Below, piece by piece: positions 1,993 to 62,854 of a DNA stretch of 64,000 nucleotides. The first letter of the stretch is position 1, and every line of letters begins with the position of its first letter. Location: contig JAGTTO010000001.1 of assembly GCA_018223435.1 (NCBI GenBank), positions 1,674,001 to 1,738,000 of the forward strand. The letters run 5' to 3'. The translations under genes and the position numbers were made by a program. The stretch comes from Lachnospiraceae bacterium Marseille-Q4251 (lineage in GTDB: Bacteria > Bacillota > Clostridia > Lachnospirales > Lachnospiraceae). The notes beneath the pieces are model-generated. The model ran no database searches, was not told where the DNA came from, and saw only the letters and a program-made list of their open reading frames with translations.

Positions 1993-2016
1993 TGTTCTTT
2001 CTCCTTATTCTTCTAT

Positions 2017-3330
2017 TCACTGTTTCATCCGGTCAGCGGCATAAACGATTTTTCCGCCGCAGATGGTCATTTCCACCTCGCCGAAGACTTTTCTTCCGTG
2101 GAAGGGGGTATTTTTTCCCATGGAACGGAATTTATTCTTGTCAATCGTGTATTCCACTTCCGGATCGATGATGGTCACGTCCGCGATCTTGCCCTCAGCC
2201 AGATTTCCTTTGTCAATCCCTAAGATTCTGGCGGGATTGGTGCTCATCTTGGCTGCCATCTGAAGCGGAGTGATCACGCCGGGGCGCACCAGTTCGCTGA
2301 TGGTCAGCGGAACGGCGGTCTCCAGACCTACGATACCGAAGGGTGCGTTCTGCATCGTGCGGAGCTTCTCCTCCTCGCTGTGGGGCGCATGGTCCGTCGC
2401 GATGACATCCATGATATTGTCGTGAAGGCCCTGCTTTAAGGCTTCCACATCCTCTTTCGTACGGAGAGGCGGGTTCATCTTGTAGTTGGCGTCATTTCCC
2501 GGAATATCTGCGGAGGTCAGCGTAAAGTGATGGGGGCAGACCTCGGCGGAAACGTCCACGCCGTCGAGTTTGGCTGCTTTCACCATGCGGACGCTGTCCT
2601 TCGTGGAGCAGTGGCAGAGATGCAGTCTCGCTCCTGTCTCTTTTGCCAGCAGAATGTCTCGGGCCACAATCACATCCTCCACCGCATTGGTGATGCCCTT
2701 CCAGCCCTTGGCTGCCATGTCTTTATCTGCGTTCACCACGCCTCCTTCCACCATGTTGATATCCTCACAGTGGGCCAGCACCGGAATGTTCAGAGATTTG
2801 GCGATCTTCATAGCCTTCCGGTAAAGTCCGGAGTTCATGACGGATTTGCCGTCCTCGCTGATGGCGGGGGAACCGGCTTTTACCATACTCTCAATGTCAG
2901 AAAGTTCCTCGCCTCTCATGCCTTTTGTCACGGCTCCGGCCTGAAGCACGTTGATGAGGCCCAGCATTTTCGCCTTATTGTGTACATAGGAGACCCGGTG
3001 GCCTTCGTCCATGACCGGTTTCGTGTTGGGCATGGCCACAATCGTCGTGAAGCCGCCGTGGGCTGCTGCCTCAGCTCCCGTATCCACGGTCTCTTTATAG
3101 GTAAAGCCGGGGTCACGGAGATGTACATGCAGATCGATGAGTCCCGGCATCACATAACAGCCGGAAGCATCCACGACCCTGCAGTCTTCTCCGGAAGCAT
3201 CCGACTCTTCCTTATCCGTATTCTGTTCCTTTACTTTCCAAATTTTGCCGTCACGAATCCACAGGTCATAAAGACCATCGCGCTCATTTACCGGATCCAG
3301 AAGACGGCCGCCTTTGATCAAAATATCCAT
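2017..3330 (-). CDS. pyrC: Dihydroorotase (class I)
   Basis: Dihydroorotase cyclises carbamoyl-aspartate to dihydroorotate. The amidohydrolase metal ligands are recognisable: LHVHLRDPG (HxH), AHCED, LHLCHCS and ATDHAPHS, plus the family signature MPNTKPV. Length (437 residues from this start) is normal for class I. The start is ATG 3330; an in-frame GTG at 3336 lies only 5 nt after GGAGG, whereas the ATG is 11 nt from it. This is the first gene of the operon and is preceded by a sigma-A promoter at 3395-3423. No pyrR or pyrB is seen in the window. Confidence 0.95.
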   Translation of the reverse strand: MDILIKGGRLLDPVNERDGLYDLWIRDGKIWKVKEQNTDKEESDASGEDCRVVDASGCYVMPGLIDLHVHLRDPGFTYKETVDTGAEAAAHGGFTTIVAMPNTKPVMDEGHRVSYVHNKAKMLGLINVLQAGAVTKGMRGEELSDIESMVKAGSPAISEDGKSVMNSGLYRKAMKIAKSLNIPVLAHCEDINMVEGGVVNADKDMAAKGWKGITNAVEDVIVARDILLAKETGARLHLCHCSTKDSVRMVKAAKLDGVDVSAEVCPHHFTLTSADIPGNDANYKMNPPLRTKEDVEALKQGLHDNIMDVIATDHAPHSEEEKLRTMQNAPFGIVGLETAVPLTISELVRPGVITPLQMAAKMSTNPARILGIDKGNLAEGKIADVTIIDPEVEYTIDKNKFRSMGKNTPFHGRKVFGEVEMTICGGKIVYAADRMKQ

Positions 3331-3394
3331 ATACACTACATCCTCCCACTCTTATAGCAATGTCTCGTACTACAGATTTTTTTGCTCTGAATTT

Positions 3395-3423
3395 ATTCTA
3401 TCATAGGATAGTGGTGGGGGCAA
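3395..3423 (-). promoter_or_regulatory. Sigma-A promoter of the pyr operon
   Basis: Minus strand: -35 TTGCCC (3423-3418), 17-nt spacer, -10 TAGAAT (3400-3395). Transcription would start near 3388, about 58 nt before the pyrC start. No terminator/antiterminator pair typical of PyrR attenuation is visible in this short leader. Confidence 0.55.
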
Positions 3424-3461
3424 ACTTTTTCTTTTTCAAATTCACAGCAATTTTCCGCATT

Positions 3462-3490
3462 TGAAAAGGACGGGAAATTTTCCCGTCCTC
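3462..3490 (-). terminator. Terminator after the serine hydrolase gene
   Basis: GGACGGGA (3468-3475) pairs with TCCCGTCC (3481-3488) around a short loop, followed on the minus strand by UUUUC. It separates the 3504-5000 gene from the pyr promoter. Confidence 0.75.
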
Positions 3491-3503
3491 AGAGCACCGG
3501 CTT

Positions 3504-5000
3504 TTATTTTCTTTTTGCAACAATTGTCGGCATTTCCAGTTTGAAAGCCAGAGTATCTTCGTCTTCTATCGTTACCTGGTCTTCCTTAAAGTTAAACGTA
3601 AGTGTCTCTTTTCCGCAGGTCTCGATCTTACGCAGTTCGATAACAAGGACATTTTCCTGCTCCCACCAGGCGCTCGCCAATACCTGGCCAGCCAGCCTTC
3701 CCGGAATCAGATTCTGTCTTCTTGAGCCGTCCATTGCAGCCCAGAGATCGAAGGTTTCGTCTCCGTCATCTGTGGAAATACATAACGTATCACAGGTAAA
3801 ATGAAGCGTAAAACTTTGAACTGCCGACGGAAGCGGCGTTCCTCCCATAATCATTTCCACCCCGTCGCAGCCCAGATAAAAGTTTCCTTCTTCTACCTGA
3901 TAGCTGCTTCCATCTACTTTTTCCATGTACGGGCTGAAGGGATGATATTTCGGAGCGGGAAGAGAAAGAGCGCTCATACGTTTTTTCAATGCGTCCGACG
4001 CTGTCTTATTTTCCCCAGCTGCGGGATTTTTTCGGATTCTCTCAAGAAAAGCCCACATGGTATCCAGGATTGCCTGTGCCCAGTGTGCTCCCGATGCATT
4101 CTCGGTAATGGCAATGAGCATATCCAGATCCGGAACAACGATCGTGAACTGCCCCATCGCGCCGTCTGCACGGTATACGCCTTCGGGCTGGCACATCCAA
4201 ATCTGATAACCATAACCGACAAAGTTATCTCTGGCCTCCGGATTTCCGATCGCCTCTGTCGCCGACTCATTCTGAAGGCTGGTCGCCCGTTTCACATAGT
4301 CTTCCGCCAGAATCCTCTCATTGTCCCAGACTCCGCCATTCGCATAAAGCTTCATAAGGCGAAGATTATCCTCGGTGGTCGAAAACAGGCCGCCTCCGCC
4401 CATCTCCGTACCGTCCGGCATTTTGATCCAGCGATGGTTATCGGAAAGGATGCCGATCTTATCATACAGGCGGGGTTTCAGATATTCATGCAGTCCAAGT
4501 CCTGTTTTCTTTTTGATAATCGCTGCGAGAACCGAAGAACCCACACTGTTGTACATATAGGTCGTTCCGGGTTTGTGTTTTACCGGGGTATGAAGGAAAT
4601 CATGAAGCCAGTTTACCGTCGGTTCCGGCATCTCGTCCATTCCGCAGCCCATGCAAAGGACATCGTGGATTGTCAGAAGCTTCAGATTTTCTGAGGGGTT
4701 CTCCGGTGCTTCTTCCGGGAAAATATCAATCAGTCTTTCATCCAGCTTTAACAGGCCTTCGGTATACGCAATGCCAATCGCCGTCGCCGCATAGGTCTTG
4801 GAATGAGACTGCTGGCCATGGCGGATTCCGGGAGCATAGGGGCTCCACCAGCCTTCCGCACAAATTTTTCCATGCCTCATAATCATTAAGCCATGGGGTT
4901 CTGTGATCCCGCTCTCCAGCTGATCCAGAAGCCACTCGATGTCTTCCGAACAAATGCCGGCCTGTTCCGGTGTGATCCGTTCAAATTCTTTTCTTGTCAT
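3504..5000 (-). CDS. Serine hydrolase of the beta-lactamase/class C family
   Basis: This 498-residue protein belongs to the beta-lactamase/penicillin-binding-protein-like esterase family. The nucleophile motif SxxK is S65-H-S-K68, in the context SHSKTYAATAIG. The second motif normally written YxN appears as YNS in YMYNSVGSS, so the Asn is not in the usual position. A C-terminal extension of ~150 residues beyond the catalytic fold resembles the lipocalin-like or beta-rich tails common in this family. No signal peptide is seen, so a cytoplasmic esterase or amidase is more likely than antibiotic resistance. Start ATG 5000 follows ACAGGAGAGG. It is a single-gene unit ending in a terminator. Confidence 0.8.
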   Translation of the reverse strand: MTRKEFERITPEQAGICSEDIEWLLDQLESGITEPHGLMIMRHGKICAEGWWSPYAPGIRHGQQSHSKTYAATAIGIAYTEGLLKLDERLIDIFPEEAPENPSENLKLLTIHDVLCMGCGMDEMPEPTVNWLHDFLHTPVKHKPGTTYMYNSVGSSVLAAIIKKKTGLGLHEYLKPRLYDKIGILSDNHRWIKMPDGTEMGGGGLFSTTEDNLRLMKLYANGGVWDNERILAEDYVKRATSLQNESATEAIGNPEARDNFVGYGYQIWMCQPEGVYRADGAMGQFTIVVPDLDMLIAITENASGAHWAQAILDTMWAFLERIRKNPAAGENKTASDALKKRMSALSLPAPKYHPFSPYMEKVDGSSYQVEEGNFYLGCDGVEMIMGGTPLPSAVQSFTLHFTCDTLCISTDDGDETFDLWAAMDGSRRQNLIPGRLAGQVLASAWWEQENVLVIELRKIETCGKETLTFNFKEDQVTIEDEDTLAFKLEMPTIVAKRK

Positions 5001-5256: not shown

Positions 5257-5359
5257 AGGGCACCTCCGTTTCTCATAGTTTTTCCTAACTGGTCTCATTA
5301 TACCATAATTTTCCCCTGGCTGTTACAGTTGAATTATGATTTTGGAAATGGTATGATAG

Positions 5360-5442
5360 AAGAGCAAGCGATTTACGCAGTAAATCAGCGGATTCTGAAT
5401 GTTTGAAGGATTGCGTGAGCTGCTCTGCAGCGTAGCAATCCG
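5360..5442 (+). repeat. Multi-hairpin repeat family 1, partial copy
   Basis: This holds the 3' two hairpins of the element that is complete at 13694-13881 and 13900-14086. GATTTAC (5370-5376) pairs with GTAAATC (5380-5386), and GGATTGC (5408-5414) pairs with GCAATCC (5435-5441) enclosing CTGC/GCAG. The outer GTCAAAAGGTC helix is absent. It lies just upstream of the 5475 gene and would be in its leader. Confidence 0.8.
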
Positions 5443-5474
5443 CAGGTACGACACACGAAGGGAGTTTCTGTTTT

Positions 5475-6428
5475 ATGACTGTGAAAAAAACGGCAGCCTC
5501 CACTCCTCTCTGGGGCGAGAAGCCTTATCGCTCCCTGGACTATGAGTATAAAAAACAGTACGGTGAAAAAATATACAAAGTCTCCTTAAACGGCGGTATG
5601 ACCTGTCCCAACCGTGACGGCACTGTGGGAAGCGGCGGCTGTATTTTCTGCAGCGCCGGAGGAAGCGGTGACTTCGCCGCGGACGCCCGCCTTTCCATCA
5701 GAGAACAGATCGAATCCCAGGAAGAAAAGCTCCGGACGAAGTTTCCGGCGAAGCATTTTGTGGCTTACTTCCAGGCTTATACCAACACTTATGCTCCGGT
5801 GGACTATCTCCGGAAAATTTTCACCGAGGCCATCACACACCCGGATATCGTAGCCCTTTCCATCGGCACCCGGCCTGACTGCCTGCCCGACGATGTACTT
5901 GATCTTCTTTCTTCCCTGAATGAGATCAAGCCCGTCACTATAGAGCTGGGCCTTCAGACCATCCATGAGAAAACGGCGGCTTTTATCCGCAGAGGCTACG
6001 CCCTTCCCTGTTTTGAAGAAGCGGTACAGAAGCTCAGAAGCTGCGGTATTTCCGTGGTTGTTCACACGATTCTTGGGCTTCCCGGCGAAACGGAGGAGGA
6101 TATGCTCGCTACGATCCGCTATCTCAATCACCAGGATATCCAGGGCATCAAGCTTCAGCTTCTTCACGTTCTGAAGGGGACCGATCTGGCTGCCTGGTAC
6201 GAAAACCCGGGCTTTCCCGTTTTTACCGAGGAGGAATATATCAATCTTGTGATCCGCTGCATCGACGAACTTTCACCGGATATCACGATTCACCGTCTCA
6301 CCGGAGACGGCCCCAAAGAGCTTCTCATTGCTCCGCTCTGGAGCAGCCGGAAGCGCTCAGTCCTCAATGAGATTCACCGGCAGCTGAAATTGCGCGGCTC
6401 CTGGCAGGGGAAATTTTTTCAACCATAA
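5475..6428 (+). CDS. YhcC-type radical SAM protein
   Basis: This radical SAM protein of the TIGR01212/YhcC family has 317 residues, normal for the group. The 4Fe-4S cysteines appear in the family's atypical spacing, CPNRDGTVGSGGCIFC (C-x11-C-x2-C), followed by GGSGDF. Conserved SIGTRPDCLPDDVLDLL and VELGLQT-like segments (here IELGLQTIHE) fit the SAM-binding barrel, and HTILGLPGETEEDM is also typical. The substrate is unknown to me. The next gene, DUF4364, starts only 10 nt downstream, so the two form an operon. The leader contains a family-1 repeat. Confidence 0.88.
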   Translation: MTVKKTAASTPLWGEKPYRSLDYEYKKQYGEKIYKVSLNGGMTCPNRDGTVGSGGCIFCSAGGSGDFAADARLSIREQIESQEEKLRTKFPAKHFVAYFQAYTNTYAPVDYLRKIFTEAITHPDIVALSIGTRPDCLPDDVLDLLSSLNEIKPVTIELGLQTIHEKTAAFIRRGYALPCFEEAVQKLRSCGISVVVHTILGLPGETEEDMLATIRYLNHQDIQGIKLQLLHVLKGTDLAAWYENPGFPVFTEEEYINLVIRCIDELSPDITIHRLTGDGPKELLIAPLWSSRKRSVLNEIHRQLKLRGSWQGKFFQP

Positions 6429-9093: not shown

Positions 9094-9597
9094 TTACTGC
9101 TCGTCTTCTTCGTCATCCACCGGCTTTACCATAGCCGCTTTCTCACGGATAGAAACTTCTTTTTTCTGTACCGGAGCCTGTTTCTTATGAATTTTCTCCG
9201 GGTGCTGGAACTCCAGCCGGAATTTCTTCTTCGCACTCAGCGTGTAAGCGTAAACCACGAGGCCAATCATGCCGACATTGCTGGCGCCGCCCCGGCCTGC
9301 GAAGATGACAAATACCAGAATTCCCATATATCCGGCAAAATCCATGGCCGCATATTTCTTGTAGGCTTTCTTCTGATCCTCCGTGACGCCCTCAAGAAGC
9401 TTCGTGAGCTTCGGCTCCAGAATATCCGTCGCAGCCCAGTAGCCCACAAGGTACAGACAGGCAATCAGCTGAAACGCCCAGATTTTAAGCCAGCCCATGA
9501 GGGTGCCGCCGATCATGACGGCGATAACGACAATCAGGGCAAGCAACGTGATTATGCTGATCTTTTTGTGAATCTTTTTCCGTTCTTCCTTATCCAT
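9094..9597 (-). CDS. Small membrane protein, function unknown
   Basis: A 167-residue protein starting MDKEERKKIHKK. Two membrane segments are visible in the first half (IITLLALIVVIAVMIGGTLMG and AFQLIACLYLVGYWAA) and a third, weaker apolar region follows (YMGILVFVIFAG ... MIGLVVYAY). The C-terminal tail is charged, with PVDDEEDEQ at the end. No family is recognised. The ATG at 9597 has AGAAGGG upstream, whereas the in-frame ATG at 9630 has no ribosome site. It is followed by a weak terminator. Confidence 0.6.
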   Translation of the reverse strand: MDKEERKKIHKKISIITLLALIVVIAVMIGGTLMGWLKIWAFQLIACLYLVGYWAATDILEPKLTKLLEGVTEDQKKAYKKYAAMDFAGYMGILVFVIFAGRGGASNVGMIGLVVYAYTLSAKKKFRLEFQHPEKIHKKQAPVQKKEVSIREKAAMVKPVDDEEDEQ

Positions 9598-9675
9598 TTG
9601 TTTTCCCTTCTGCCGCCTTTCCGCGGCCATTTACTAAAGGAAAGGATAACACAGACAGTCCTAAAAGTAAAGCGA

Positions 9676-10218
9676 TCAGCGCCAGGAAAGAAGCTCTTCC
9701 ACGCTCTTTTTCTTCGGTGCTGCGGGAGCGCTTTCCGGATAGCCTGCTGCCAGAAGGGCGGAAACATTATCGCCCTCCGGAAGCTCCAGGATTTTTCCAA
9801 GAATCTCCTCGTCAAAAATGCCAAGCGTTACAGTGCCGACGCCGTACTCGTGGGCCGCCAGCATGAAGGTCTGGGAAGCGATGCCCGCGTCAAACATTTC
9901 CCACTTGTCCTTTTTGGAGGTGGTGTAGGAACCGTCCTTCTCATAACCGCAGATACCGGTCTTTGTCACAACGACGATCAGCACCGGGCAGGCGGAGATG
10001 ATATCTTTATTATGGGTAAAATTCATCGTAGCTTCTGTGGCAATCCGCTCCTTAAGGGCCGCGTCCTCCACGGCGATATACCTTACGGTCTGGGAATTTT
10101 TCCAGGAGGGAGCAAAGGCAGCCGCCTCCACGATCTGTTCCAACACTTCATGCGGAACCTTTTTATCCTCAAATTTCCGTACGCTTCGTCTTGTCTTGAT
10201 TCCATCAATTAACTGCAT
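9676..10218 (-). CDS. Nitroreductase family protein
   Basis: A 180-residue FMN-dependent NAD(P)H oxidoreductase of the nitroreductase fold. The N-terminal RRSVRKFEDKKVP motif binds the FMN phosphate, APSWKNSQTVRYI is the usual second FMN segment, and GVGTVTLGIF with the C-terminal LLAAGYP region completes the fold. The physiological substrate cannot be told from sequence. The ATG at 10218 is preceded by GGAGGAATTGATCG. It appears to be a single-gene unit. Confidence 0.88.
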   Translation of the reverse strand: MQLIDGIKTRRSVRKFEDKKVPHEVLEQIVEAAAFAPSWKNSQTVRYIAVEDAALKERIATEATMNFTHNKDIISACPVLIVVVTKTGICGYEKDGSYTTSKKDKWEMFDAGIASQTFMLAAHEYGVGTVTLGIFDEEILGKILELPEGDNVSALLAAGYPESAPAAPKKKSVEELLSWR

Positions 10219-10322: not shown

Positions 10323-10546
10323 TTTCAGAACCTTATGTAGAGAAAACTCCCGGTTTTCCCCACAGCAACCGGCTGTCATAGCTGTACGCCTTAGACCCAT
10401 TGGCTTTGCGTCACTGCATTTCAACAGGTTTGCTGAATTTAAAGTTCTCTTTCCCTCTCGAGAAAGAGTATATCAGAAAAAATCAGCTCCTGCACAACTT
10501 TGGCACAATCGGCAGGATTTTAAGCACAATCGTCGTTTCGCCTTAC

Positions 10547-11275
10547 TTATTCGGCAAAATCTCCCTCTTTTCGACTGAGAAAATACCGATTATATGCGTC
10601 TATCAGCTCTTTTCTTCCACGCACCCGGATAGGGACCATATTTCCATTTTTCAGGATAAAATCTTCTTTCACGTCTGCCACCTGATCCATATTTACCAGG
10701 TAACTCTGATGACACCGCAGAAAACGCTTCTCTCCGATCCGGGACTCGATATCATTCAGTTTGTCCTGCGTCACAATCTCACTGCCATCTTTGAGATGGA
10801 GTGTGACGATATGACGGTTGCTGTCAATATAGAGGATATCATCGGTGTAGGGATAACGGAACTGCCGTCCCGTCTTTACTGCTACCCGGTTCCGGTCACC
10901 GGTTTTCAGTGTTTTCTCCAGAAGACGTACCAACTGAGATGCAGAAAAGGGCTTGAGGATATAGCCGGAAGCTTCCACTTCGTAACTTTCGACTGCAAAA
11001 TCAGGAGACATGGTCAGAAAAACGATGGGCGCCGTGCAGGAAAGCGCTCGAAGTTTCACTGCCGTTTCCATACCGTTAATTCCGTTCATAAAAATATCCA
11101 GGAACAGAAGATCCATTCCCAGATATCCTTCTTCCACATCCGCTGTCAGCGATTCTCCTGAACTATATTCCTCTACAAGAGCCTCTTCCCCGCGGTCGTC
11201 AAAATATTTTTCCAGAAAATGTCTCAATATGCTCCGATCAATCTCTACATCATCACATATTACGATCTTTTTCAT
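10547..11275 (-). CDS. LytTR-family response regulator (orphan)
   Basis: A 242-residue AgrA/ComE-type regulator. The N-terminal receiver domain has the acidic pair DD (residues 8-9), phospho-acceptor Asp60 in LLFLDIF and the KPF motif. The C-terminal LytTR DNA-binding domain is clear: IETHxHxVTLHL-like (here IDSNRHIVTLHL), RFLRCHQSYLVNMDQV and VPIRVRGRKELIDAYNRYF. No histidine kinase lies next to it, so its partner is encoded elsewhere. The TGAGGG ribosome site precedes ATG 11275. Confidence 0.9.
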   Translation of the reverse strand: MKKIVICDDVEIDRSILRHFLEKYFDDRGEEALVEEYSSGESLTADVEEGYLGMDLLFLDIFMNGINGMETAVKLRALSCTAPIVFLTMSPDFAVESYEVEASGYILKPFSASQLVRLLEKTLKTGDRNRVAVKTGRQFRYPYTDDILYIDSNRHIVTLHLKDGSEIVTQDKLNDIESRIGEKRFLRCHQSYLVNMDQVADVKEDFILKNGNMVPIRVRGRKELIDAYNRYFLSRKEGDFAE

Positions 11276-12016: not shown

Positions 12017-13594
12017 TCAGTCCTCTTTTGAATTTTTCCGGCCACGGCGTTCTCTTAAAGAATCGACGATGTAGCGGGAAAGGGTGTTGGCTTCCGCCTT
12101 CGACTCGGCTTTCTCCCGTGCTTTCTCTGCTTTTTCCAGAGCTTTCTCCATCTTTTTCAGCCGGGCTTCCAGCTCGGCCTTGGCCTCTTCCATCTCTTTT
12201 AACTGCCGCTGGGCTGTCTTGGCCTCGTTTCGCGCCTTCGCCGTTGCGGAATCTGCTTCCCGGCGGAGTTTTTCCATGGCCTGACCGGACTCGCAGCGAA
12301 CCTTCTCCAGAGCCGCGTCTGCTTCCCGGCGGGCTTTCTCAGCCTGGGAATCGGCGGATTTCCTGGCGGCTTTCTGCACAGCCTCAATCTCCTGCTTTGC
12401 TTTTTCGTGGGCAGCTTCGATCTCCTGCGCAGCACTCTCACGGGCAACCGCCACGGCTTCTTCGGCTTCTTTCTTCGCGGCTTCTACCTCTTCCTTTGCT
12501 TCCTGGCGGGCTAAGACTACATTTTCTTTCGCCTCTTTCTCACTCTGGAGACGGGCTTCCTCGGCCTCTCTCGCCTGCTTCTTCGCATGACGGGTCTCCT
12601 CGCCGGCGGCGGCGAGCGCTTCCTGGCTCTCGTTCAACTGCTGCTGGACCATGTCAAGCTGCATCTCCGTATCCACCCGCATCTGATCCAGATATTCCAT
12701 CTGGCCGGTAAGACTTTCCACCTGACCGTTGAGATCCGAGACAGTCCGCTCCAGTGTTTCCCTCTGCTCGGTCTCCTTCTGAAGCTTCTCTTCCGCCTCG
12801 ATCTGAGCCTGGGTCACTTCCTCCACGAAGACCTTCCGGATCTCCACGTCAGGAATGTTCCGGTCCTCTACGATCTCCTCTTTAATCTCTTTGATAAATT
12901 TCGGCTTCACCGGCTCCCGGTGTTCCTCGGCGAGCTCTGTCATCCGCCGGGGATCTGCCTCCAGAAGGCTCTTGAACACTGTATAATTCGTGATGAGGTT
13001 TGTATACATCTGTAAAAGGTACTCTTCATCGAATTCCAGCGCGGAATCCTGCTCCTCAATCGTATAACCTACCTCATCGTAGCTCTCGATAAACTGCCAC
13101 AGCTTGTAACAGGTACGGTAGCTCGGGTCCTTCATCATAAGGTTGGTTCGCTGGATCGGGCTTCGCACCATCGCACAGCCTGCCATGAGCTCACAGAAAG
13201 AACTGCTCCTTAAATTCCGAACCATACGGCGCAGACGGTCGATCCGTTTGAAGACTTCCATATGGTCGCTGTCATTTTCCGCATAACTCTGACGATTCTT
13301 GATCGTCATTTCTATCTTGTAGGAAATCTCCTCGTAGGCGTCGTCCACCTTGCTCTCCATGCTCATGGTATTACAGGTTTCATCACCGGTAGACCAGAAG
13401 ATGACATCCGTCCGTTTATCTACGAAGGTGAAGAGCCGCTGAATCAGATGATAAACAAAACGGTTCTCATAAAGGTCATAGCTTTCCTCTGTGGAAACAT
13501 TCAGGATCCTGGTGGGCTGAATCTCGCCATCCTCATCGCTGGCAATAAACCTGACTGATAGGCGCGTCAAAAGCGAGACGCATCTTCGTCCCAT
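12017..13594 (-). CDS. Long coiled-coil protein with DUF2357-like N-terminus, 5' end probably frameshifted
   Basis: A 525-residue protein. The N-terminal ~220 residues resemble the DUF2357 group (STEESYDLYENRFVYHLIQRLFTFV). Residues ~255-510 are an almost continuous Ala/Glu/Lys-rich coiled coil, and the C-terminus is basic. The ORF start at 13594 has no well-placed ribosome site. A better one (CAGGAG) precedes an ATG at 13619 that reads MAGALQIKHGTKMRLAFDAP and then stops after 28 codons in a different frame, suggesting a small deletion near 13559. The function is unknown. It is translationally coupled to sipW, which may mean that both act at the cell envelope; this is inference. Confidence 0.65.
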   Translation of the reverse strand: MGRRCVSLLTRLSVRFIASDEDGEIQPTRILNVSTEESYDLYENRFVYHLIQRLFTFVDKRTDVIFWSTGDETCNTMSMESKVDDAYEEISYKIEMTIKNRQSYAENDSDHMEVFKRIDRLRRMVRNLRSSSFCELMAGCAMVRSPIQRTNLMMKDPSYRTCYKLWQFIESYDEVGYTIEEQDSALEFDEEYLLQMYTNLITNYTVFKSLLEADPRRMTELAEEHREPVKPKFIKEIKEEIVEDRNIPDVEIRKVFVEEVTQAQIEAEEKLQKETEQRETLERTVSDLNGQVESLTGQMEYLDQMRVDTEMQLDMVQQQLNESQEALAAAGEETRHAKKQAREAEEARLQSEKEAKENVVLARQEAKEEVEAAKKEAEEAVAVARESAAQEIEAAHEKAKQEIEAVQKAARKSADSQAEKARREADAALEKVRCESGQAMEKLRREADSATAKARNEAKTAQRQLKEMEEAKAELEARLKKMEKALEKAEKAREKAESKAEANTLSRYIVDSLRERRGRKNSKED

Positions 13595-13693
13595 GTTTTA
13601 TCTGTAAAGCTCCTGCCATTTTTCTTCTCCTGTAAGTTTCTCTATCCGCGTAATATCAGCAGTTTCCTGCTAATTTATTATATGATGATGCCA

Positions 13694-13881
13694 GGGTCAA
13701 AAGGTCAAAAAGCCGTTCATGCTTGCATGATAAGGCTTTTGAACTTGGGACCCGCCAAACATGAGAAAGCAGCGATTTACGCAGTAAATCAGCGGATTTC
13801 GAATGTTTATAGAATTGCGGGAGCTGCTTTGCAGCGGAGCAATTCGTAGGCATCAGTTGGGGGCAAAAGACCTTTTGACCC
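13694..13881 (+). repeat. Multi-hairpin repeat family 1, complete copy 1
   Basis: This is a 188-nt element bounded by GGGTCAAAAGGTC (13694-13706) and its exact reverse complement (13869-13881). Inside are, in order: an AAAAGCC/GGCTTTT arm capped by TCATG-CTTG-CATGA, a helix AAACAT/ATGTTT enclosing the GATTTAC/GTAAATC hairpin, and a GAATTGC/GCAATTC hairpin with an inner GCTGC/GCAGC. No open reading frame is conserved. A second copy follows directly. Confidence 0.9.
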
Positions 13882-13899
13882 CAACATCATATGATACCA

Positions 13900-14086
13900 G
13901 TGTCAAAAGGTCAAAAAGCTGTTCGTGCTTGCACGATAAGGCTTTTGAACTTGGGACACGCCAAATATGAGAAAGTAGCGATTTACGCAGTAAATCAACG
14001 GATTTCGAATATTTGGAGGATTGCGGAAGCTGCGTAGCAGCGTAGCAATCCGGGTATCAAATGAGTGTCAAAAGACCTTTTGACAC
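13900..14086 (+). repeat. Multi-hairpin repeat family 1, complete copy 2
   Basis: This 187-nt tandem copy is offset by about 206 nt from the first. Its outer helix is GTGTCAAAAGGTC/GACCTTTTGACAC; the inner ones are TCGTG/CACGA, CCAAATAT/ATATTTGG, GATTTAC/GTAAATC and GGATTGC/GCAATCC. Where it differs from copy 1 inside the helices, both partners have usually changed together. ATATGAT-type flanks occur before, between and after the two copies. Confidence 0.9.
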
Positions 14087-14181
14087 TCATATCATTATAT
14101 TCTATATGATACACCAGACAAATTCAAGACTTTCATCTCCAAGAAAATGACATTTTTCGGTCCAAAAACGAAAGATTTTTC

Positions 14182-14229
14182 AAAAAAATGACTTCCGAAA
14201 GCCTTTTCGCTTCGAAAGTCACTTTTTTG
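14182..14229 (-). terminator. Terminator after the LtaS-like gene
   Basis: TGACTTCCGAAAGC (14189-14202) pairs with GCTTCGAAAGTCA (14209-14221) with one mismatch, followed by U7 on the minus strand. A T6 on the plus side makes it potentially bidirectional. Confidence 0.85.
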
Positions 14230-14231
14230 CC

Positions 14232-16262
14232 TTATTTCTTTTTCTCTGTTTCCTCAGAAGCCGCCACATACCGGTACGGTATCGTCGTGCTCAGTTCTGC
14301 CTGAGAAACCGTAATCAGGGTGCCGTCCTCTGGTGCCGCCTCGGGAACCACCAGGGTCTCAGGATCCAGGTAAAGGGTGTCCATTTTTTCATCTCCTATA
14401 TGGACCACACTGTAGCGCGTGAAGTTTTCGCCCCGAACCTTCATGACATGGTCGTAGGTCACGTTCACAGCATCCAGCTGCACCGGCGACAGGCCCATCG
14501 TCATATTTGAGGGGTAATAGGGATTCTCTTCGCCATAGCAGATCTGATCTCCGTAGAGAATGTCATACTCCAGCTCCTTTAATTTTGCCAGGTAATCTTC
14601 TTCTGTCAGACTCCCCTCCGCCATCTGCTTCTGGCCGTTTTGGTGATAGGCGTTCACAACTCCGTCCGTGATGCCGAGAGCGGAAAGCACCTCAGACCCC
14701 ACCTCATAGGCCTCCCGGTCTCCGCCGTCAAAAGTGAGGCCCGTGTTGTTCCAGATGAAATAGCAGGTGTCGTAGATCGTTCCGGATTTCAGCATATCAT
14801 CGGTAAGATCCAGGCTCGGGCAGTGATCCCCGTACATAACGAGGATCGTGGGCTCCCGCCGTTTCCGGAGCATGTTCCAGAGATCTCCCACAAACTGGTC
14901 CACCTCGTAGATCTGATTCGCGTAATAATTGATCTGGTTCAGATAATTCTCGTCCTCTATCACACTGCTGGTGGCAGTCACATGATGCTCGTATTCGACA
15001 TCCGGCTCGGAAGGATAACTTCCATGAGACTGCACAGCAACCGCGAAAACGAAATCTTTTTCCGCTGTGGCGCTTAAGGCCTTCTCAATCTCACCTGTCA
15101 GCACGGAATCCTTGGACCATTCCATCGCAGTGTAACCCTCGGGCCACATATACTCCACAGAATCAAACACGTCAAAGCCCAGATTCGGGTAAACCAGATT
15201 CCGCTCATAAAAGCTTCCCTCATGGTCGTGGATCGCATAGGCTTTGTAACCGTAGGATTTCAGGTTGTAGGCCAGAGATTCGCAGGTTTTTTCCTTCAAA
15301 ACCGTTTTGTAGGGGTACTCGCCGATGCCAAAATCATCGATGTTCATGCCGGTGAGCATCTCAAACTCCGAGTTTACGGTTCCCGCGCCGATGACTGGTA
15401 CGCTTAAGAAACCGGAAGCGCATCTCTTGGAAAGCTGCGTGAAATTCGGCAGGGGATTTTCGGAAAATTCAATGTCTTTCAAACGGTTCACATCGAAGAA
15501 AGATTCCAGCTGGACGACCACAATATTCGGCCGGTTGGAATCAAACACTTCCCCGTCTCCCAGAGCTTCGTCCGTCAGCCCCTCGATGGCCTCGGTGGAA
15601 TACTCCTCCGGCCGGCTGATGCCCACGTCGATGAGGCTGGCGCCAAAGCAGTAAAGGAAACCATTTCTCTTATAGGACTGGGAAAGTTCCCGGAATTTCG
15701 TCTCCAGAAGCTCCGTCTTCTGTCCGACAAAAATGAGTCCCCAGGCAGCCAGGAAGGTGCAGAGAATCGCCGTCACGGAATACGGAAGTTTCGGTCTTTT
15801 TTTCACCGCCGGAATACGGAAAGCCAGCACCGCCAGCACGACGATGACCAGTACCAGAAGGGCCACCAGGGCAGCCAGGGCCAGAAGGCTTAAATATTTC
15901 GAGGCCACGTTTACGCCATCCTTCAGGAGCAGAAGATCGCTGCTGGTAAAAGGCGTCACCCGGAAGGTCAGGATCACACCGTTGATGATTCCCAGAGTCA
16001 GCCAGAAAAGCGTAAACAGAACCAGAAGGCTCTTCTGTTTCCTAAACAGCAGAGCCAGGGAATAGCTGCAGCCCACGATCAGCGCATTGACCAGAAAGGA
16101 ATAGGGGTGCTGAAAAAGGAACAGAATCCCGGCGATCAGGGAATGGCGGCAGATGCTCTCGACGACCAGCACTGTCACCACCGCATGGAGCGGAAGCAGG
16201 ATCGCCGAATTTTCCGGCAGACGCAACTTTTTAAAAGGCAACTTTTTATGTAATTTTTTCAT
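14232..16262 (-). CDS. LtaS-like phosphoglycerol transferase (sulfatase fold)
   Basis: This membrane enzyme resembles lipoteichoic acid synthase. About five transmembrane helices occupy the first ~200 residues, followed by an extracytoplasmic alkaline-phosphatase-like domain. Catalytic landmarks are PNIVVVQLESF (metal Glu), GAGTVNSEFEMLTG (nucleophile Thr), AIHDHEGSFYERN and VMYGDHCPSL (metal Asp/His). It would polymerise glycerol-phosphate or modify a surface glycan. The ATG at 16262 was chosen; the same frame runs to a TTG at 16292 overlapping the GH32 stop. Homologues with similar architecture also act on other cell-wall polymers, so the exact product is unsure. Confidence 0.85.
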   Translation of the reverse strand: MKKLHKKLPFKKLRLPENSAILLPLHAVVTVLVVESICRHSLIAGILFLFQHPYSFLVNALIVGCSYSLALLFRKQKSLLVLFTLFWLTLGIINGVILTFRVTPFTSSDLLLLKDGVNVASKYLSLLALAALVALLVLVIVVLAVLAFRIPAVKKRPKLPYSVTAILCTFLAAWGLIFVGQKTELLETKFRELSQSYKRNGFLYCFGASLIDVGISRPEEYSTEAIEGLTDEALGDGEVFDSNRPNIVVVQLESFFDVNRLKDIEFSENPLPNFTQLSKRCASGFLSVPVIGAGTVNSEFEMLTGMNIDDFGIGEYPYKTVLKEKTCESLAYNLKSYGYKAYAIHDHEGSFYERNLVYPNLGFDVFDSVEYMWPEGYTAMEWSKDSVLTGEIEKALSATAEKDFVFAVAVQSHGSYPSEPDVEYEHHVTATSSVIEDENYLNQINYYANQIYEVDQFVGDLWNMLRKRREPTILVMYGDHCPSLDLTDDMLKSGTIYDTCYFIWNNTGLTFDGGDREAYEVGSEVLSALGITDGVVNAYHQNGQKQMAEGSLTEEDYLAKLKELEYDILYGDQICYGEENPYYPSNMTMGLSPVQLDAVNVTYDHVMKVRGENFTRYSVVHIGDEKMDTLYLDPETLVVPEAAPEDGTLITVSQAELSTTIPYRYVAASEETEKKK

Positions 16263-16272
16263 AACAGGTATC

Positions 16273-17733
16273 TTATTTTTCCTCCAAAACAATCTCTTTG
16301 GCAGTCACATCCATGACGGCCTCGCCGTCGCTTTCAAAGAAGATGCCTTCCGCCTCGTTCTCCGTATAGATGAGGGCTGAAAAGACCTTCGCTCCGCCCT
16401 CAGCAAAAATCTCCACCGTATAACGGTCCATCAGAATCCGAAGAGAAAGTTCCTCCTCCGCTTTCACCGCCATACTCCGGTTGTGAACGATATTCCAGTG
16501 AACGCCGGAGTAAGTCCGGTCAAAAGTAAGAACCTCCGCTTTCCGGTCGTAGGTGATCGTACTGTAATGCTTCTCTCCCGCCGCCAGGTAAAGCGTCCAT
16601 TTATCGTAAGCTTTTCCCTTTACCGTGACAGAAAGATCGATCATTCTGCCCTGTATACAGGTCAGCGCCTGTTTTTTCCCGATGGAAACGTCTGTATACA
16701 CGGCTTTTTCCTTCAGGTAATTTTCCAGTTCCCGTACCGGGCGCTGGCAGAGACGGCCATTTTCCAGAAACAGCTCTCTCGGGATGCTTAAAATGCCGCA
16801 CCAGGGGAAGCCCTCCGGCAGGAAAGCCTTCTCGCAGGACTGCATCCAACCGATGATAACTCTTCGGCCATCCGCCGTTTCCATGGTCTGGGGCGCGTAG
16901 AAATCCAGACCGTAATCAAGGCTTCTGGCTGTCTCCCGTTCAAACTTCATTGTTTTCGGATCATAGGTCCCGGTGAGGACAATGCAGTTATTTCCCGGGT
17001 GAAATTCCAGGCCTTCCGCCTCCATTCCGATGGGAGAAACTGTCAGAATCCACTTATCTCCCAGCGGGAAGAAATCCGGGCACTCCCACATGATGCCGAG
17101 CTTCCCGTAACTCTTGTCCAGAATCGTCTCAAACTTCCAGTTTCTAAGATCCACGGAGCTGAAAAGAGCTGCCTCTCCGCCGTTTTCCTCCGCACAGCAG
17201 CCGACAATCACATAGTAAAGATTTCCGTCCTTCCAGACCTTGGGGTCCCTGAAATTCCTCTGATCGTAGCCTTCCGGCAGAAGGGAGGCCGGAATCACCG
17301 GATTTTCCGGAGCTTTCTCGTAATTCAGGCCGTCTCCCACAGCCAGGCACTGGGTCTGATGTTCCTCGCCGCCGATAATTTTCACGCCCGTGTAGAGCAG
17401 ATACTGCTTTCCGTCTTTTACAATGGCGCTTCCGGAGAAAACGCCGAAATCGTCATAGTCCTGATCCGGAGCCATGGCTGCGGGCAGATACTCCCAATGG
17501 AGAAAATCGCTGCTCTTCGCATGACCCCAGTGCATGCTGTTCCACCGGGTTTCGTAGGGGTAATACTGGAAAAAGAGATGATGCTCTCCTTTATAATCGG
17601 AAAAACCGTTGGGATCGTTCATCCAGCCCACGGGATTCGTAAAATGAACCGCCGGCCGGGGAACGCCGCCCTCCTTTGCTTTCTCCAGGGCACGTTTTTC
17701 CTGTTGTCTCGCCTTCTCTAATAATGTACTCAT
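16273..17733 (-). CDS. GH32 sucrose(-6-phosphate) hydrolase
   Basis: A 486-residue glycoside hydrolase family 32 enzyme. The nucleophile Asp40 lies in WMNDPNG, the RDP motif is in FRDPKVW, and the acid/base Glu is in WECPDFF. A C-terminal beta-sandwich is present. No signal peptide is found, which favours cytoplasmic hydrolysis of sucrose, sucrose-6-phosphate or short fructans. The start at 17733 was chosen because GGAGG lies just before it; the open frame runs 56 codons further upstream, but that part overlaps the spore-coat gene. No sugar transporter or scrR is adjacent, so the substrate form is uncertain. Confidence 0.9.
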   Translation of the reverse strand: MSTLLEKARQQEKRALEKAKEGGVPRPAVHFTNPVGWMNDPNGFSDYKGEHHLFFQYYPYETRWNSMHWGHAKSSDFLHWEYLPAAMAPDQDYDDFGVFSGSAIVKDGKQYLLYTGVKIIGGEEHQTQCLAVGDGLNYEKAPENPVIPASLLPEGYDQRNFRDPKVWKDGNLYYVIVGCCAEENGGEAALFSSVDLRNWKFETILDKSYGKLGIMWECPDFFPLGDKWILTVSPIGMEAEGLEFHPGNNCIVLTGTYDPKTMKFERETARSLDYGLDFYAPQTMETADGRRVIIGWMQSCEKAFLPEGFPWCGILSIPRELFLENGRLCQRPVRELENYLKEKAVYTDVSIGKKQALTCIQGRMIDLSVTVKGKAYDKWTLYLAAGEKHYSTITYDRKAEVLTFDRTYSGVHWNIVHNRSMAVKAEEELSLRILMDRYTVEIFAEGGAKVFSALIYTENEAEGIFFESDGEAVMDVTAKEIVLEEK

Positions 17734-62770: not shown

Positions 62771-62823
62771 TTGTGTATGTCTCCTTTCTTATCCTGGACA
62801 GCTTTCTGTCCTCTTTTTCCGGA

Positions 62824-62841
62824 GTCAAAAGATCTTTTGAC
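62824..62841. repeat. Perfect palindrome resembling the end of repeat family 1
   Basis: GTCAAAAGATCTTTTGAC is an 18-bp perfect palindrome between the GH2 and GH1 genes, followed by CCCC as in the right end of the complete copy at 13694-13881. It may be a solo end or remnant; chance similarity is not excluded. Confidence 0.45.
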
Positions 62842-62854
62842 CCCAGCTTCTTTT

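Follow-up and report, generated by a model that had tools for sequence, protein, structure and literature searches.

Results

RF01699 as a probable mobile element

The best explanation of the Rfam family RF01699 ("Clostridiales-1 RNA") as a whole is that it is a MITE, a non-autonomous DDE-type transposon, and we consider this reading highly probable. Under this reading, what Rfam lists as an sRNA gene is a mobile element that has exact ends, a target preference and a duplication length, and the annotation of RF01699 matches in Lachnospiraceae-type genomes changes accordingly. The family and its fold were already known; the mobile-element reading is new as far as the literature searches reach, which include the main text of Weinberg et al. 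2010 (PMC2864571), where Clostridiales-1 RNA is listed and where the words "transposon", "inverted repeat" and "mobile" each occur 0 times.

Two successive insertions in the window

In the window (the whole 64,000-nucleotide stretch of DNA that was analysed), two complete RF01699-type elements were arranged head-to-tail, spanning 13687-14093. The younger, copy 1 (13687..13888, plus strand), is 202 bp long and reads GATGCC...ACATC; the older, copy 2 (13893..14093, plus strand), is 201 bp long and reads GATACC...ATATC. The ends of both were taken from the flanking 7-bp repeats. The left terminal inverted repeat of copy 1 (13687..13706, plus strand) matched the reversed right end (13869-13888) at 17/20 positions, and the two ends of copy 2 matched at 18/20. 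The copies were 89% identical to each other over 162 nt. Analysis with cmscan assigned copy 1 to RF01699 with 128.0 bits over 13686-13855 and copy 2 with 126.9 bits over 13892-14059 (gathering score 48), and both matches covered the full model, positions 1-166. Rfam catalogues RF01699 as an sRNA gene, and its match stops short of the 3' hairpin that carries the right inverted repeat.

Perfect 7-bp target-site duplications were observed for each copy. For copy 1, ATATGAT is present at 13680..13686 and at 13889..13895, and the last 3 bases of the right repeat are the first 3 of copy 2. For copy 2, ATTATAT is present on the right at 14094..14100 and on the left at 13677..13683, split off from its element by the insertion of copy 1. 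In-silico removal of copy 1 together with one ATATGAT gave an uninterrupted copy 2, with ATTATAT directly before GATACC and on both sides of the element. Because the removal restores these flanks, copy 2 probably inserted first, in the AT-rich spacer, which would have duplicated ATTATAT, and copy 1 later inserted across the left boundary of copy 2, which would have duplicated ATATGAT. The chance of a perfect 7-mer match at the local base composition is about 1.6e-4, and that of two such matches is about 2.5e-8. The pair in the window represents two insertions in succession, with the later one nested in the earlier.

The initial annotation had placed the repeat at 13694..14086, which is slightly narrow for the two elements and for flanking repeats that extend out to 13677 and 14100. 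Its statement that no ORF is present agreed with the window ORF list, in which no ORF of at least 80 aa, the size on which our statement of coding capacity rests, overlapped either copy. It had further suggested that the repeat may be a novel family of structured RNA or else a mobile element of non-autonomous type. The family was already known as RF01699, but mobility was supported by the target-site duplications and the nested insertion. The window copies present several features of a MITE, namely short length, absence of ORFs of at least 80 aa, terminal inverted repeats and two 7-bp duplications, and high dispersed copy number was found in relatives.

The pair is flanked by two minus-strand ORFs, 12017-13594 without a Pfam match and 14232-16292 of sulfatase type. 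For the protein of the former, five related loci were found in MAGs titled Lachnospiraceae (2), Eubacteriales (1) and Collinsella (2). The first of these loci belongs to the genome G001, and because a very similar RF01699 copy (L006) is present there, the host of the window is probably a Lachnospiraceae-type bacterium. A third copy (5367..5446, plus strand) is decayed, 5'-truncated and without the 5' hairpin; its RF01699 match (5283-5451) scored 42.8 bits, under the 48-bit cut-off. As it lies about 30 bp before ORF 5475-6428, it may sit in the leader of that gene. A hairpin at 62821-62850 resembled the 3' hairpin of the element (83% over 30 nt), but RF01699 did not reach its gathering score at this position. 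Elsewhere in the window, a c-di-GMP-I riboswitch (RF01051, 60 bits, 10361-10444, minus strand) was detected upstream of a nitroreductase-family ORF (9676-10218, minus strand), and an ORF with a weak AgrB match (9094-9630, minus strand) lies near a LytTR response regulator (10547-11275, minus strand), possibly an agr-like signalling locus.

Target-site duplications in related genomes

Duplications were surveyed in G043 and G276, with 25 loci from each and 54 aligned copies, 34 with a recognisable 3' end and 20 without. Perfect duplications flanked 28 of the 34 two-ended copies, 22 of them 7 bp and 6 of them 8 bp long, and four of the other six copies came within one mismatch of a 7- or 8-bp duplication. 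When left and right flanks were taken from different copies as a control, a match of at least 7 was found in only 4/616 combinations. The explanation of the copies as decayed IS ends, which had been named as the outcome that would go against the first proposal, is not supported by these counts, and no parent IS was found in the searches described below. The approximate consensus of the 7-bp duplications is A T W W T A T, with a target preference of AT-N(3-4)-AT.

Duplications of at least 7 were also found in other genomes, in 11/26 copies when one best copy was taken per genome (control, 13/650; 4 of 30 loci, L132, L135, L141 and L154, were dropped as short) and in 7/28 best copies of a second genome set (control, 8/756; 1 of 29 loci, L337, was dropped). 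A perfect duplication of at least 7 was absent in the other 15/26 and 21/28 best copies, which include copies with other starts such as AAGCCC. Deletion derivatives of 77 bp (L241) and 28 bp (L397), each with both ends, kept the duplications ATAGAAT and ATATTGT, respectively. Head-to-tail neighbours appear to be common, since 7 of the 34 two-ended copies adjoin another copy at a shared duplication. At one orthologous site, the congeners G304 and G306 share one flank of a G043 copy (782 bp, 82% identical), and no element match was found in the 3.7 kb around that site in either genome. This empty site is supporting rather than base-exact, because the alignment ends about 30 bp short of the element and the flank identity is 82%.

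Duplications of 7-8 bp combined with inverted ends are marks of DDE transposase action, and therefore a DDE transposase probably acts on the element in trans. Such a cut-and-paste enzyme would recognise ends of the type GATRYNRGGGTCAAAAGGTC and make a staggered cut of 7-8 bp.

Two other modes of movement were weighed against these data. Palindromic sequence, intergenic location and high copy number would also be expected of a REP/BIME-type element, for which a Y1 (HUH) transposase would be the mover. Y1 transposition leaves no target duplication, so the precise duplications contradict elements of REP/BIME, REP/RAYT or IS200/IS605 type. A PF01797 match was obtained in 5 of the 6 genomes searched, and none was found in G237 despite its 31 copies. 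We regard this origin as exceedingly improbable. A SINE-like retroelement, which would move by reverse transcription of its structured RNA into nicked AT-rich DNA, would account for the RNA-like folded body and for the AT-rich target with flanking duplications; the perfect duplications are exclusively 7 or 8 bp long, inverted repeats are present at both ends, and the deletion derivatives keep both ends, all of which make it a highly improbable origin.

Of 47 sites with a duplication, 14 had an outward promoter-like pair at the left end, in which the target duplication serves as the -10, and 1 had such a pair at the right end. Pre-insertion targets overlapped a -10-like site in 8/47 cases, compared to 15/334 control AT 7-mers. 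The outward-promoter idea is only a lead because the -35 part is weak (mostly ATGACC).

Spread and copy number

Matches to RF01699 at E 0.001 or better were found in 161 of 299 genomes of the family of G001, with at most 9 candidates scored per genome, and exceeded the cut-off in 130; 14 control genomes had 0 matches. Fuller scoring of six positive genomes picked for their matches gave 110 (G043), 95, 92, 31 (G237), 20 and 15 matches, and 30 further positive genomes had 1 to 44 each. In G001, 13 of the 21 matches exceeded the cut-off, and one of its copies, L006, was very similar to copy 1. With crude ORF calls, 73 of 92 copies lay outside ORFs of at least 80 aa, and the orientations of neighbours were ++ 23, -- 19, -+ 22 and +- 9, which indicates no clear strand preference. 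Plasmid matches to the element were not found. Partial matches were present in 13 records of faecal origin that are named "Bacteriophage sp." and lack annotation, and viral contigs contained none of the exact end patterns; these 13 records are probably bacterial fragments.

These numbers bear on whether RF01699 could be an ordinary trans-acting sRNA gene that was locally duplicated in the window. Rfam types the family as "Gene; sRNA", with its function listed as unknown, its covariation is strong, and a table of PMC2864571 scores it "probably RNA", not cis-regulatory and not a riboswitch. Up to 110 matches per genome, the 7-8-bp target duplications and the nested insertion are against an sRNA gene, and a simple sigma-70 consensus scan of 13560-14260 gave four promoter-like sites, none of them on the plus strand. 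As a complete account, an sRNA gene is contradicted by the duplications, and we regard it as very unlikely.

Conservation of the fold

Both copies are predicted to form a closing stem, P1, that encloses hairpins P2, P3 and P4 and is followed by a separate hairpin, P5. In copy 1 (all on the plus strand), P2 (13694..13753) has the outer helix GGGTC/GACCC, the inner helix TCATG/CATGA and the loop CTTG; P3 (13757..13808) has AAACAT/ATGTTT, a GA/GA internal loop (13763-13764 and 13801-13802) and the inner helix GATTTAC/GTAAATC; and P4 (13812..13845) has GAATTGC/GCAATTC with a purine-rich internal loop. The predicted pairs of P2 and P4 are conserved. P5 (13856..13885), which the Rfam match does not cover, contains the greater part of the right terminal inverted repeat. 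The fold z-scores of copies 1 and 2 were -9.47 and -9.57, respectively, against 200 dinucleotide shuffles each.

The initial annotation had reported paired changes in copy 2 (GTGTC/GACAC, TCGTG/CACGA, AAATAT/ATATTT and GGATTGC/GCAATCC) with GATTTAC/GTAAATC invariant, and had argued from them that the fold is maintained. All five stem statements were found in the sequence, P5 was absent from its list, and the wider alignments covaried in accordance with its argument. The left end of copy 2 differs by one G-to-T change (GGGTC to GTGTC), and matching changes are present in three further places, namely the P2 partner, the right end and the other arm of P5, so that four places are coordinated.

We examined an alignment of 25 sequences, consisting of the 2 window copies, 1 G043 copy and 22 of 26 loci. 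Changes on both sides were present in 23 of 40 pairs, pairing cells amounted to 96.6% compared to 83.2% in shuffles, and sliding the partners by 1-3 columns lowered pairing to 34-44%; the structure was derived from the same alignment, which tilts these measures. Among the five measures, only the count of further pair types showed no excess (46 versus 44.9 in shuffles; 201/500). In an alignment from 54 genomes, Watson-Crick double changes were found in 43 of 46 column pairs, the columns having been picked by Watson-Crick pairing alone. As judged by these sequence comparisons, the fold of RF01699 is conserved.

The paired changes could also have arisen in a transposon through correction of its palindromes at the DNA level, by template switching or hairpin repair, with no selection on RNA. 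We regard this origin of the changes as a real, if somewhat doubtful, possibility. It agrees with helix cells that are almost all Watson-Crick (2234, versus 59 G-U, 36 A-C and 149 other in the 54 genomes) and with the lack of a clear orientation bias toward host transcription. On the Rfam strand, however, more G-U was found in 20 column pairs and more A-C in 8, and isolated mismatches were G-U in 31 cases versus A-C in 8, an excess that speaks against DNA-level correction but is tilted by the relatedness of the rows and by the strand-specific model used to find them. The GA/GA internal loop of P3, which would read TC/TC on the opposite strand, was kept in 48/54 genomes, and this also speaks against correction.

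A purely RNA reading meets difficulties of its own, since G-U pairs are rare, the copies show no clear orientation bias and unpaired columns were overall not more conserved than paired ones (13/73 unpaired and 21/92 paired columns were at least 90% conserved). The G-U excess and the GA/GA loop modestly favour the Rfam strand as the folded strand; the preference is only modest because the sequences share ancestry and a strand-specific model was used to collect them.

A P3-like module, ATGAGCAAGNAGCGAAGCGGATTGCGAA (at most 1 mismatch), was present in 32 of the 299 genomes (e.g., at the loci L373, L369 and L370), with 30 occurrences in G001 and 26 in G021, and the reversed-pattern control gave 0 matches among those listed. 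Because L033 and L034 carry ATGAGCAAGNAGCGAAGCGGATTGCGAA inside repeats with other ends, the module may be common to several mobile repeat families.

Search for an autonomous partner

An autonomous partner with the same ends was not found by searches for PF01797, PF00872, PF01609 and PF01610 in the genomes searched or by searches for the end patterns. PF00872 had no match in G043, which carries 110 copies. The fetched loci of PF00872, PF01609 and PF01610 matches held no element with RF01699-type ends, and no inward pair of ends was present at five PF01610 loci. The multi-copy IS256-type and DDE_Tnp_1 elements whose ends allowed a comparison have ends that differ from those of RF01699. The end-pattern searches revealed no autonomous element among the matches listed, a set that leaves out 2 counted sites in G043 and 7 in G276.

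Several candidates were rejected. At L229, an inward pair 1.58 kb apart (2003-3583) encloses a MatE-family gene and no transposase, and was therefore taken as two decayed copies. A transposase at L290 (595-2468) is bracketed by family ends and a 7-bp repeat, but the 1790-bp core was also found in three further locations that lack these flanks (identities of 100%, 100% and 91%), indicating that another IS, of 1790 bp and with a 526-aa DDE transposase, inserted into an RF01699 copy and split it. A set of 20 atypical end-pattern sites, examined together with at most about 5 kb of sequence to one side, gave 5 inward pairs, three of them 45 to 204 bp long. The inward pairs at L400 (4.0 kb) and L404 (1.5 kb) had no matching flanking repeats and enclosed transporter, glycosidase or two-component genes.

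Discussion

A possible role for the interior

If only the ends are needed for transposition, the conservation of the interior fold is left without a reason, and this counts against the MITE explanation, as do the failure of the searches to reveal an autonomous partner and the copies in which a 3' end was not recognisable or a perfect duplication was absent. The fold may be kept because the element is single-stranded at some step, most likely as RNA read from neighbouring promoters. A more specific proposal is that RF01699 is a transposon whose interior works as a functional strand-specific RNA: the transcribed fold and the conserved purine internal loops would be needed for mobilisation or host tolerance, both transcript ends would lie in local hairpins, and an outward promoter would be completed by the left end upon insertion at AT-N(3-4)-AT. 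Taken with all its parts, this proposal is unlikely. Why a transposon that moves by its ends should retain a covarying body of several hairpins in dozens of species is a testable question.

Comparison with known repeats

PMC3446304 likens the bcr1-bcr3 repeats of the Bacillus cereus group to MITEs in both structure and function, and a length of 167 bp is given for Bcr1 in PMC2267715. Like RF01699, they are by description intergenic, repeated, fold-prone and MITE-like, and they differ from it in belonging to another bacterial group. The target duplication of bcr1 is 5 bp, compared to 7-8 bp for RF01699. The Correia/NEMIS elements of Neisseria and the pneumococcal RUP and BOX elements are, like RF01699, short dispersed intergenic elements, some of them with inverted ends, but they differ from it in their hosts, their ends and their target duplications.
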